64,000 nt of DNA from Aureococcus anophagefferens (taxonomy: Eukaryota > Sar > Pelagophyceae > Pelagomonadales > Pelagomonadaceae), in the NCBI RefSeq assembly GCF_000186865.1, contig NW_008705566.1:1667699-1731698 (forward strand). The letters are read 5' to 3'. How positions within the stretch are numbered: the first letter of the stretch is position 1; each line of letters begins with the position of its first letter. The translations under genes and the position numbers were made by a program. Below the pieces are notes generated by a model. It was not told where the DNA came from, did not search any database, and saw only the letters and a program-made list of their open reading frames with translations. This document shows positions 2,404 to 9,932 of the stretch, in pieces.

Positions 2404-2642
2404 TGTTTTTTGTGATGGAACTTGACTCACTTTGGATCTGGGGCTGGGGCTGGCGGGTTGTCGGGAGTGAGCGCGCGCGCGATTCGCGACGCCCGGAGGC
2501 GCGCGCGCTTGTCAATGGGCGCCGCACCGAAAAAACGACACACGTGCAGTTAAGTGCAGGCAAAAAAAAGAACGCGCGATTCCGGTGTGTATGTACAACC
2601 AAGGTTGATCCAGGCAAAAAGAAAAAAAGCGACGTCGATGCG
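2404..2642. other. Intergenic segment with tRNA terminator
   Basis: No gene seen. It holds the 3' region of the JmjC gene and, read on the minus strand, a run of seven T at 2622-2628 just past the tRNA 3' end, which fits an RNA polymerase III terminator. A short motif (CAGGCAAAAA) occurs twice about 55 bp apart. Confidence 0.5.
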
Positions 2643-2715
2643 TTCCGATACCGGGACTCGAACCCGAGTCTCGAGCGTGAGAGGCTCATATGCTAACCGC
2701 CTACACCATATCGGA
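2643..2715 (-). tRNA. trnE-CUC: tRNA-Glu (CTC)
   Basis: 73 nt cloverleaf on the minus strand. The acceptor TCCGATA pairs perfectly with TATCGGA and is followed by discriminator A. The D arm is GTGT/GCAT, the anticodon stem TGAGC/GCTCG, and the loop CTCTCAC gives anticodon CTC (reads GAG, Glu). The T arm is CCGGG type with TTCGAGT. There is no intron and no encoded CCA. A T7 run downstream fits Pol III termination. In this GC-rich genome GAG is the main Glu codon. Confidence 0.96.
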
Positions 2716-6396: not shown

Positions 6397-8454
6397 GTGG
6401 CTTTGGAGCGTCTTCCGCGCCACCACCAGCGCAAAACTAGTGCTTCAGACGTGCCAACGCTGCACAGCAGCACTGCAGTAGCAAGCGCTGCCAATTTTGC
6501 GCCGAAAAACTTGCAGCGCTCGCAAAACCGCTTTGCCAGCAGCCCAGCAAAGCCACCGCTGCAAGCCACCGCGAGACAAACCACGAAGCCGCACAAACTC
6601 CTCGTCGCGCTCATGGCGGTCGCCGCCGAGGGCGCATCACAGACACGAGTCTGCGCGCGGGAGCTGCGGCGCGCGTTCAGCCAGCCGCGGCGCGTCGACG
6701 ACGCCGCGTGCGTCGCGCTCGTGCGCCGCGCCGACGCCGCAGCGATCAACACGGGCAACGCCAACGGCAAGTCGCCGCTCATGTTCGCCGCGCAGTTCCG
6801 GCCGACGTCCGCCGTCGTCGAGGCGCTGCTCGCGGCCGGCGCGGACCGCGACGCGACGACGCGGCGGGGCCACACGGCGCTCGTCTTCGCCGCGGGGCGG
6901 GGCCGCGACGACACGGTGAAGGCGCTCCTCGCCGGCGGCGCGTCCGCGCGCGTGCGCACGGTCACGGGCGACACCGCGCGCGAGATGGGCGTCGGGCGCT
7001 TGGACCCGGCGACGGTCGCGCTGCTGGAACACGCGGAACAAGGCGGCGGCTGGGTCGACTTCCGCGACGTCGAGGACGCGAAGGATGCGCAGCGCGAGCA
7101 CGCGCGGCACTGCGCGTTCTGCCGCGCGAAGATGGGCCTGACGGCGGACGCGTTCGACCCGTCGGCGGCCGCGGAGGCGGCGCGGCGGCGCGAGGCGCTC
7201 GCGGTCGAGGCGGCGCGCGCGCGAAAAGAGTGCGCCGCCGCGGCGGACGCGGAGACCTTAGCGCGCGCGCTCGTCGCCGCCGCGTGCCGCGCCGTCGTCG
7301 CGTCGCGGCCGACGCCCGTGCGCGACGCGGCGGTGGCCGTCGTCGGACCCGCGCTCCGCGACGCCGCCGCGTCGCGGCCGGGCGTCGCGCTGCGCGCCTG
7401 CGGCGACGCCATGCTCGGGCGGGCGCTGCCGGGCAAGGACCGGCGGCCCGTGCGCCTCGTGCTCGAGGCGCTCCTCTCCGTCGACTTCGAATTGGGGGAC
7501 GTCGTGGCCTTCGCGCGCGACGACCCCAAGTCGCTCGCGACGGCCGTCGAGGTCGCGGCCGCGTGCCCCCGCGACGACGCCCTCGTCGGCGAGCTCCTGG
7601 AGCTCGCGCTCGCCTACGCGAAGCGGCGGTCCCACGCGGGGGAGATGCTCGGCGTCCACGGCGTGCTCCCGTTCCGCCACGCGAAGCGCGACGGCGGACC
7701 CGCGGTGGACCTCCTCGCGCGGCTCCACCGCTTCGCCGAAAACGCCGCGCCGTCGCGCGCGTCGTTCCTCGACGACCTCGCGGACCTCGCGGCGGCCCAG
7801 GGCGTCGCGCGGGCCTACCACGCCGCCGTCGGCACGGAGGCGCCGGCGACGGCCCTCCCGCCGCCGCCGCCGCCGCCGCCGGCGGCGTCGCTCCCGCCGC
7901 TGGAGCCGCGCGCGGCGCCGGCGATCTGGGTCGATGACGCCGCCGGCCTCGCGGCCGCGCTCCGGGCCCTCGACGGCGCCGCGCGGGTCGGCGTGGACAC
8001 GGAGTGGGGCGACGCGGGCGACGCGGACCCGCGCGCGCCGCCGGCGCTGGTCCAGCTCGCGACGGACGCGAACGTGTTCCTCGTCGACGTCACGGCGCTC
8101 CGGGCGGCGGCGCCCCGAGCCCTGGCGACGCTCGCGGCGAAGCTCCTGCTCGGCGACGACGGTCTGGTCGTAGTCGGCTTCGCGTTCGGGAGCGACGCGC
8201 CGCGGCTGGAGGCGCTCCTGGACGCCGCGGGGGCCAAGCGCGACGTCGTCGACCTCCAGCGCCTCGACGGCCGCCGCGCGCGGCTCCCGTCGCTGCGGGA
8301 CTGCTGCGCGACGTGGCTCCGCCGCCGGCTGGACAAGTCCGAGCAGTGCAGCGACTGGGACCGGCGGCCGCTGTCCGCGAGCCAGCTCGCCTACGCGGCC
8401 CTCGACGCCTCCGTGCTCCTGCCGCTCCACGACGCCATGGTGGCGGCGCGGTAA
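6397..8454 (+). CDS. Ankyrin-repeat protein with 3'-5' exonuclease (EXD/Mut7-like) domain
   Basis: Up to 685 residues. The ATG at 6613 (MAVAAEG) is a more likely start, since the first 72 residues look like untranslated sequence and would crowd the divergent kinase promoter. Ankyrin-like repeats (about 115-200: GKSPLMFAAQF, GHTALVFAAGRG) come first, then a Cys pair and an Ala-rich helical middle. After a polyproline linker, a DEDD-type 3'-5' exonuclease domain fills 510-685: VGVDTEWGD (Exo I), PALVQLAT, and SDWDRRPLSASQLAYAALDA (Exo III Tyr and Asp). This is the fold of EXD3/Mut-7 and WRN exonucleases, acting on RNA or DNA ends; the substrate is unknown. Confidence 0.8.
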   Translation: MALERLPRHHQRKTSASDVPTLHSSTAVASAANFAPKNLQRSQNRFASSPAKPPLQATARQTTKPHKLLVALMAVAAEGASQTRVCARELRRAFSQPRRVDDAACVALVRRADAAAINTGNANGKSPLMFAAQFRPTSAVVEALLAAGADRDATTRRGHTALVFAAGRGRDDTVKALLAGGASARVRTVTGDTAREMGVGRLDPATVALLEHAEQGGGWVDFRDVEDAKDAQREHARHCAFCRAKMGLTADAFDPSAAAEAARRREALAVEAARARKECAAAADAETLARALVAAACRAVVASRPTPVRDAAVAVVGPALRDAAASRPGVALRACGDAMLGRALPGKDRRPVRLVLEALLSVDFELGDVVAFARDDPKSLATAVEVAAACPRDDALVGELLELALAYAKRRSHAGEMLGVHGVLPFRHAKRDGGPAVDLLARLHRFAENAAPSRASFLDDLADLAAAQGVARAYHAAVGTEAPATALPPPPPPPPAASLPPLEPRAAPAIWVDDAAGLAAALRALDGAARVGVDTEWGDAGDADPRAPPALVQLATDANVFLVDVTALRAAAPRALATLAAKLLLGDDGLVVVGFAFGSDAPRLEALLDAAGAKRDVVDLQRLDGRRARLPSLRDCCATWLRRRLDKSEQCSDWDRRPLSASQLAYAALDASVLLPLHDAMVAAR

Positions 8455-8531
8455 TGGCGGCGGAAACCACTTTTTAGCTTGCGTTCTCGGGGGTTCGAAG
8501 GGGGGGGGGGGGTGCGCGCGCCTCGGGCGCG

Positions 8532-8603
8532 CCGCGAGGGGCGACCGGTCGCCGCCGGAGCCGGTAAAATTGGCTCCGGCGGGTCATTCGTCGCGCCTCG
8601 CGG
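8532..8603 (-). promoter_or_regulatory. SECIS element (selenocysteine insertion) in 3' UTR
   Basis: On the minus strand, starting 72 nt after the UGA that closes the methyltransferase frame. Basal helix: CCGCGAGG (8603-8596) pairs with CCTCGCGG (8539-8532), plus GCGAC/GTCGC. Core quartet: ATGA at 8587-8584 opposite CGA at 8551-8549. An 11-bp helix II pairs CCGCCGGAGCC (8582-8572) with GGCTCCGGCGG (8562-8552). The apical loop begins with AA at 8571-8570, 12 nt after ATGA. These spacings match the eukaryotic SECIS consensus (ATGA, AA, GA). Seen directly; folding was done by eye. Confidence 0.88.
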
Positions 8604-8675
8604 CGGGATCGAGCGCGGGCGTGGGTGTCGCGTGTCCGGTGGGTCGCGGCGCGGGGGTACGCGCCGCGGCTAGCC

Positions 8676-9932
8676 TCACGCGGCCGGCTTCGCGGACCCG
8701 CCGCCGCTCGGAGGCGGGCAGCAGGCCGCGGCCGGCGGCGCGGCGGCCGCGGCGGCCGCGGGCGGCGGGCAGCAGGCCGCGGCCGCGGGCGGCGGGCAGC
8801 AGCCGCCGGCGGACGCCGGCGGCGCCGGCGGCGCGCCGAGGCCGTACAGCACCGCGTCGCGGAAGCCGTGCGTCGACCGGGGCTTGGTGGCCGTGACGTA
8901 GGCGGACGTGACGTACTTCTCGGCGCCGCTGCCGGGGATCCAGCCCTTGACGATGTCGCGGCCGTTCTCTTTGACGGCGATCTTGACGTCGACGAAGCCC
9001 GCGGCGACGAGCATGGCCTCGATCTCGTCCTCGGCGGACGCGCCCGCGACTCAGCACGCGAACGCCTCCGCGGTCTTGAGCGCCTCCGGGATGTCCGACG
9101 TGCGGAGCACGTCGCTGATGGACACGCGGCCGCCGGGCGCCAGCACGCGGTTCATCTCGCGGTAGACCGCGGGCTTGTCCGGGCTCAGGTTGATGACGCA
9201 GTTGGAGATGACGCAGTCGACCGCGCCGTCGCCGACGGGCAAATGCTCGATCTCCCCGAGGCGGAAGGACACGACGTTGCCGTAGGGCGCCGCGGCGGCC
9301 CGCGCGCGCGAGAGCATCTCCGGCGTCATGTCGACGCCGATGACGCGGCCGGACGGGCCCACGAGCTTCGCGGCGGCGAAGCAGTCGACGCCCGCGCCCG
9401 AACCGAGGTCGACGACGACCTCGCCGGGCTTCAGGTTCGCCGCAATCAGGGGGTTGCCGCACCCTAGACCCAGGTCCGCGCCGGCCTCGAGCTCCACGCC
9501 GTCGTAGCCGAGCATGGCCTTCCGCTTCGCGACGTCGCCGACGTCGCCGGGGAGCACGGACGGCCCGCCGGACGCCGTCGCCGCGTAGGCGTCGCGCACG
9601 GCGGAGCGCACGGCGTCGTCGGTTTGGCGCGGCGGGGCCGTCGCGTTCACCGTGTTGGCGACGCGGTCGGGCGGCGCGCCGCCGACGACGGCGCCGCCGC
9701 GCGCGACGACGATCCACGGCAAAGCGGTCGCGCCCAGCTCGAGCGCGCAGTCCGCGCCGTCGTCCGTCGACGCGTCGACGGTGCCGACGCGCGCGACGCC
9801 CGCGGCCTGGGCCGCCGCGACGGCCTTGGCCGCGTCGCGGGCGCCGACGGCGAGGGCGACGGCGCTCAGGGCGCCGCTGCCGGCGAGCCAGGCGCGCACG
9901 GCGTCGGCATCTTCGAGCGCCGCCTCCGCCAT
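8676..9932 (-). CDS. Arsenite methyltransferase-like selenoprotein (Sec294, in-frame UGA)
   Basis: 418 codons with an in-frame UGA at 9053-9051 (codon 294), read as selenocysteine. Residues 1-100 resemble a thioredoxin fold without a CxxC. Residues 135-346 are a class I SAM methyltransferase of the ArsM/AS3MT type: GLGCGNPL (Cys158), DLGSGAGVD (SAM loop), VISNCVINL (Cys245), then [14 protein letters not shown], where the family has Cys (GECLGGAL in human AS3MT, Cys206), and [17 protein letters not shown]. Cys158, Cys245 and Sec294 therefore line up with the three As(III)-binding residues. The tail has three CCPPP motifs (Cys pairs at 378, 387, 404). Homology on both sides of the UGA and a SECIS downstream support recoding over a pseudogene. 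Confidence 0.88.

Follow-up and report, generated by a model that had tools for sequence, protein, structure and literature searches.

ArsM enzymes are known to hold As(III) at three ligand positions and to methylate it with a methyl group from S-adenosylmethionine (SAM). Selenocysteine (Sec)-containing members of the family are on record: Zhang and Gladyshev 2008 (PMC2398784), in the parts of the paper covered here, count arsenite S-adenosylmethyltransferase (PRK11873, arsM) with Sec among the selenoprotein families, give 8 Sec sequences in GOS and 245 Cys homologs for it, and place Sec arsM in prokaryotes and in eukaryotes, the latter mostly aquatic (e.g., green algae). A Sec methyltransferase has been described from Ostreococcus tauri, O. 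lucimarinus, and Thalassiosira, the last one termed SAM-dependent (Lobanov 2007; PMC2375036), and MT appears among the abbreviations of an algal paper (Jiang 2020; PMC7539508); the string "arsen" does not occur in the main text of either. By passage search, Zhang 2005 (PMC1088965) names arsenate reductase without mention of arsenite, and Zhang 2006 (PMC1794560) gives no match to methyltransferase or arsen. The first-pass annotation of the locus presented here had stated that methyltransferase-type selenoproteins are reported from algae, which the covered parts of the two algal papers bear out. It had left undecided whether a Sec substitution in the active site had been described: the family with Sec was listed in 2008, and the exact position is not given in the covered parts of that paper. 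NCBI also curates three families of ArsM-like double selenoproteins, ArsM_AhpD_UU (NF041537), ArsM_DUF2284_UU (NF041536), and MTase_UXPK_star (NF047649).

The window, that is, the whole stretch of 64,000 nucleotides that was analysed, carries an ArsM gene that is predicted to encode Sec. Its parts are:

8676..9932, minus strand: putative Sec-containing ArsM gene, 418 residues with UGA read at codon 294
9051..9053, minus strand: in-frame UGA, codon 294, at the human AS3MT Cys206 position by alignment
8678-8676, minus strand: stop TGA of the ArsM gene, from the frame translation
8973..9467, minus strand: SAM-dependent methyltransferase core, residues 156-320 (PF13847, 1.7e-31; PDB ArsM matches)
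9633..9932, minus strand: N-terminal ~100 residues, possibly thioredoxin-like without CxxC (weak; 6ckp thioredoxin, E 0.11)
8679..8846, minus strand: Pro/Ala tail with three Cys-Cys pairs, from the sequence (pLDDT <50 over most of it)

The frame starts at ATG 9932 on the minus strand and, as had been claimed for it, is broken only by TGA 9053-9051, its 418 codons holding no other internal stop. The further claim that family sequence resumes right after the UGA also holds, the match to the NCBIfam arsenite methyltransferase NF008823 (PRK11873) running over residues 104-353 and across codon 294. With the UGA read as Cys, this match scores 265 bits against a cut-off of 263, and with the stop unread the same gene scores 259.7 bits, below that cut-off; a score so barely over the line counts against the explanation that we prefer. 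By sequence, its nearest relatives of solved structure are CrArsM (5evj), CmArsM (4fr0 and others), and human AS3MT (8xt7), while identity to bacterial ArsM reaches 64% over ~180 residues among the matches listed. An AF2 model built from 26 sequences has a confident core, with pLDDT of 85-98 in blocks across residues 171-350, and poorly predicted ends, and its seven best solved matches in Foldseek are all ArsM structures, with CrArsM and CmArsM on top; because the ends of the model are disordered, TM-scores over the whole of it are only ~0.4. The N-terminal ~100 residues have no match in Pfam and are predicted, at low confidence, to alternate between helix and strand.

No strong ArsM other than the window gene turned up among the candidates scored in the 49-Mb assembly (49/49 in one scan and 27/43 in another), a second ArsM-like gene discussed below apart; the window gene scores 259.7 bits and the next candidate 113. 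The organism's arsenic methylation may, therefore, depend on its selenium supply.

Four residues of the product need to be located before the arsenic site can be discussed:

9459..9461, minus strand: Cys158, human Cys61 equivalent by alignment; Cys in 82/84 relatives
9198..9200, minus strand: Cys245, human Cys156 equivalent by alignment; Cys in 84/84 relatives
9051..9053, minus strand: codon 294 (UGA, as above); Cys in 84/84 relatives kept
9054..9056, minus strand: Cys293, adjoining codon 294 and a possible selenenylsulfide partner (from row counts)

The relatives counted are the closest ones, namely the best 80 of at least 548 genome-contig loci plus 4 viral-contig loci, rather than a full census. 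In the alignments to human AS3MT (8xt7), CrArsM, and CmArsM, the GECL Cys stands opposite codon 294, the SNC Cys opposite Cys245, and the GCG Cys opposite Cys158. Given the chain offset, we take these three to be human AS3MT Cys206, Cys156, and Cys61, respectively. The first-pass annotation had matched the same residues in this way and had proposed alignment with ArsM/AS3MT structures as a check; the alignment to these three confirms the match and puts the UGA on the conserved Cys. All three As(III)-ligand positions are filled by Cys or, on our reading, Sec (C158, C245, U294).

A stop codon inside a conserved frame should immediately raise the question of whether it is simply a stop. The gene could carry a nonsense mutation or be truncated and decaying; its ordinary stop is also UGA, and a single base change turns a Cys codon (TGC or TGT) into TGA. 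We consider this highly improbable, since 124 codons follow the UGA without another stop and continue the family sequence, a SECIS-type hairpin is in place, and a UGA stands at the same column in the second ArsM-like gene of the genome and in 14 distinct bacterial rows with the triad Cys, Cys, Sec (hereafter C/C/U). Across a 208-row alignment (3 rows of which are not alignable as ArsM; L136-L138, for which there was no match, are in none of the alignments), an in-frame TGA occupies column 294 in 40 rows, or 35 once 5 duplicates are removed, and the only other in-frame TGA within columns 150-320 lies in an insertion of that second gene; nonsense mutations arising at random would not cluster in a single column like this. 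An intron that removes the UGA was considered and rejected: the alignments are ungapped through the UGA and its neighbouring residues, which leaves no room for one. More generally, a codon that is truly Cys and has been obscured by an assembly error, an intron, or an RNA edit is scarcely credible; a single genome assembly is the source, but a SECIS-type hairpin would not accompany an error.

The hairpin lies in the 3' untranslated region (UTR):

8529..8606, minus strand: SECIS-type hairpin, 3' UTR (z -6.7; strict pattern match)

It consists of ATGAC (8587-8583), an 11-bp helix, a 9-nt apical loop starting with AA, CGA (8551-8549), and a basal helix; its ATGA begins 88 nt downstream of the stop codon, and the z-score is relative to dinucleotide shuffles of 8500-8620. 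Searching with a loose SECIS pattern gave 3 matches in the window where 3.03 are expected by chance, and it was replaced for this reason by a strict pattern with controls, which requires at least 8 bp directly after [AG]TGAC, then CGA, on either strand and anywhere in the locus. Using at least 10 bp, the strict pattern occurs once in the window against an expectation of 0.025 per 64 kb (200 Markov sequences, both strands). With at least 8 bp, it is present in 8/10 loci of the genome that have an in-frame TGA (7/9 when the window's own locus is set aside) and in 1/23 of those that do not (L107); this count leaves out L002 (a TGA, no match), L100 (same gene as L103), and L009 (a tRNA), as well as a fourth TGA-bearing MsrA match for which there was no locus. 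No Rfam SECIS family gave a match in the window at the gathering threshold, in 8400-8720 at E up to 10, or in L002; this counts against the element, as does the chance-level outcome of the loose pattern.

The genome also appears equipped to read such an element. Its tRNA-Sec scores 73.9 bits against a cut-off of 47 and is called by ARAGORN as well, and a SepSecS gene was found. The window itself has a tRNA gene:

2642-2715, minus strand: tRNA-Glu (CTC), ordinary

In-frame TGAs recur in other selenoprotein-type families of the genome, in 3/8 GPX, 3/5 Rdx, and 4/15 MsrA matches. The same hairpin design follows the next in-frame stop in two GPX (L097, L099), two Rdx (L105, L106), and three MsrA loci (L114-L116, of which L114 needs one mismatch); it is also present in the GPX locus L103, a gene of more than one exon. 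One TGA-bearing Rdx locus, L104, gave no SECIS-type element. Conversely, the Rdx-family locus L107 (G000:C65) has a SECIS-like hairpin nearby and no in-frame TGA in the matched stretch, and its Sec codon may lie in another exon. As a separate observation, L097, L114, and L115 share the word TAACGAC, located no more than ~20 nt past the SECIS core; it may be a 3'-end signal.

A stem right after the UGA was sought in the window gene and none was significant (z +1.3), which fits decoding through the 3' UTR. Three features that one looks for in a eukaryotic selenoprotein are found here: an in-frame UGA aligned to the Cys of homologs, a 3'-UTR SECIS recognized by structure and pattern, though without an Rfam match, and Sec machinery as judged on tRNA-Sec and SepSecS. 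The earlier proposal that Sec replaces the Cys206 equivalent is supported by the aligned UGA, the SECIS-type element, tRNA-Sec, and SepSecS together, and the reading of UGA-294 as a predicted selenocysteine is strongly supported.

Sec at this column is not confined to the window. The second ArsM-like gene of the same genome (L002:1531-2335; G000:C33) has two in-frame TGAs, the second of them at the Cys206 column, with Gly at columns 158 and 245; ~20 nt past its stop lies a hairpin that carries AUGGC in place of the AUGAC or GUGAC of the genome's SECIS elements. Neither this second gene, the bacterial Sec forms, nor the 3'-UTR hairpin of the window gene figures in the first-pass annotation of the locus. 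For the bacterial Sec loci, the best 30 were read from each of three scans, along with 16 further places. Of 297 genomes from a single bacterial phylum, 107 match NF041537 at the E-value used, two of them over the cut-off. Among the loci read, 19 bacterial rows form a Gly/Sec class: column 294 is Sec, and the Cys156 and Cys61 equivalents are replaced by Gly and by Val or Ile, respectively. The C/C/U class comprises the window gene and at least 14 distinct bacterial rows, 5 duplicates having been removed. A short stem can be drawn after the UGA in most bacterial C/C/U genes, mostly weak when folded as single sequences (z -3.7 to 0.0); in a joint fold that left out L182 and L238, it is kept in 12/14 aligned rows, with 3/11 pairs changed on both sides. 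Two C/C/U ArsMs, L182 and L238 (the latter from the phylum of G009), stand apart from the main bacterial Sec clade and are possibly further independent Sec origins. Elsewhere in the family, a Cys-type ArsM of Syntrophomonas (L036 / L129; G009:C2:142953-143648) has an in-frame TGA within its N-terminal motif, SSTGCUAPDTGCCG, possibly a different Sec site in ArsM. That two ArsM branches, and both bacteria and an alga, have Sec at one and the same column points to a chemical advantage at this ligand.

At the N terminus, the window gene departs from most of its relatives. A Cys-Cys motif within 60 residues before the core Cys is present in 139/151 Cys rows and in 14/14 bacterial C/C/U rows, and it is absent from the window gene as well as from all 20 Gly/Sec rows. 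We do not take this pair as family-defining, because 12/151 Cys rows lack it too; its loss nevertheless makes reduced or altered activity of the window enzyme possible. It also bears on the substrate. A Sec enzyme with the ArsM fold might act on something other than arsenite, such as selenium or tellurium oxyanions or another thiophile; besides the missing N-terminal motif, one can point out that the related Gly/Sec branch, L002 included, lacks the Cys156 equivalent, and that the nearest curated families carry "arsenite methyltransferase" as a name, as far as was covered here. We regard another substrate as rather unlikely, given that the three As-ligand positions are all retained, as Cys, Cys, and Sec, and that identity to 25 aligned ArsM relatives is 52-62%.

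What we propose instead, and hold to be very likely, is an ArsM in which UGA-294 is read as Sec under the 3'-UTR hairpin and As(III) is bound on Cys158, Cys245, and Sec294. The product would be a bacterial-type As(III) SAM methyltransferase, and its host a eukaryote that is probably an alga. Directed by the hairpin, the eukaryotic machinery of the cell itself would decode UGA-294 as Sec, with readthrough expected in vivo. Cys158, Cys245, and the Sec294 selenolate would then hold trivalent arsenic as the presumed substrate, a methyl group would move from SAM to the arsenic, and thioredoxin or glutathione would reset the oxidised Cys/Sec. The roles given here to the selenolate, Cys293, and the Cys-Cys tail are ones that we infer.

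A more elaborate version would see a rebuilt redox relay in the Cys293-Sec294 pair, the fused thioredoxin-like domain, and the three-fold Cys-Cys tail. Together these would bind As(III) and form and reset a selenenylsulfide, standing in for the lost N-terminal Cys pair so that less outside reductant would be needed. Cys at column 293 is uncommon (2/15 distinct C/C/U rows, the window and L182, and 7/151 Cys rows). We judge such a relay to be distinctly improbable; if true, the enzyme would be a self-contained selenium-dependent arsenic methyltransferase.

How the alga came by its Sec is a harder matter. It may have received an ArsM that already bore Sec from bacteria and exchanged the bacterial SECIS for a 3'-UTR one, with no Cys-to-Sec change of its own. 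In support of this, a 98-row tree joins the window gene to 9/10 of the bacterial C/C/U rows then known (99/85), the tenth, L182, being placed elsewhere; columns 293-294 had been removed from it, and half of the Cys rows L012-L095 (42/84 kept) and eight junk or duplicate loci had been dropped. A 93-row tree likewise puts the window gene with 12 bacterial Sec rows and one Cys row (93/73), and the AU test does not reject a Sec clade (p 0.42). A 161-row tree, on the other hand, places the window gene among alphaproteobacterial-type Cys ArsMs (SH-aLRT 94, 8-row set), a position that the AU test also leaves unrejected (p 0.40). Both the 161- and the 93-row trees were built without same-gene duplicates, non-ArsM rows, Gly-245 rows, L002, L132, L133, L139, and L183-L185; from the 93-row tree, roughly half of the remaining Cys rows and two long singletons, L182 and L238, were dropped as well.

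Trees from the three row sets thus disagree, and the AU tests reject neither origin. Profile scores speak against inheritance of a bacterial Sec, as the window gene scores 264.6 bits with a profile of 12 bacterial Sec rows, under 60/60 profiles made from 12 random Cys rows (mean 278.2). It has 3/18 of the diagnostic residues of the Sec clade, and 1/8 of those of the alphaproteobacterial set. The lack of a significant stem after its UGA, noted above, argues in the same direction. Taking these together, we consider inheritance of a bacterial Sec possible but doubtful, and lean slightly toward an independent Cys-to-Sec change after the transfer of a bacterial ArsM. The gene offers a case for how a selenoprotein gene passes from bacterial to eukaryotic Sec decoding, and, if our reading is right, selenium here sits right at the arsenic site of an enzyme that detoxifies arsenic.

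Set against the known systems, the window gene shares its fold and its three As-ligand positions with CrArsM, CmArsM, and human AS3MT (5evj, 4fr0/4fs8, 8xt7); these have Cys where it has the predicted Sec, and it is closer to bacterial ArsM. It falls far below the cut-offs of all three curated double-selenoprotein families; against NF041537 it reaches 141.5 bits where 510 are required, and the match ends at profile position 229/345. The NF041537-matched loci that were read as Sec forms have an ArsM-like domain with Sec at the same column, but differ from the window gene in having Gly for Cys156 and Val or Ile for Cys61. The arsM of PMC2398784 is of the same family as the window gene, as far as the covered parts of that paper allow a comparison; these parts give neither a residue position for ArsM nor a link to the As-binding triad, and assign GOS selenoproteins common to both domains to bacteria. 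As for the algal MT selenoprotein (Lobanov 2007; Jiang 2020), in the covered parts of those papers the likeness is that of a methyltransferase with Sec, and the C/C/U type and the L002 type are not distinguishable there. The novelty is smaller than first hoped, since the Sec ArsM family and algal MT selenoproteins were already on record, and since bacterial ArsMs and the second gene of the alga have Sec or UGA at the same column. To these systems, and with no claim of priority, the present analysis adds the residue-level assignment, the SECIS, the status of sole strong ArsM among the candidates scored, and the loss of the N-terminal Cys pair.
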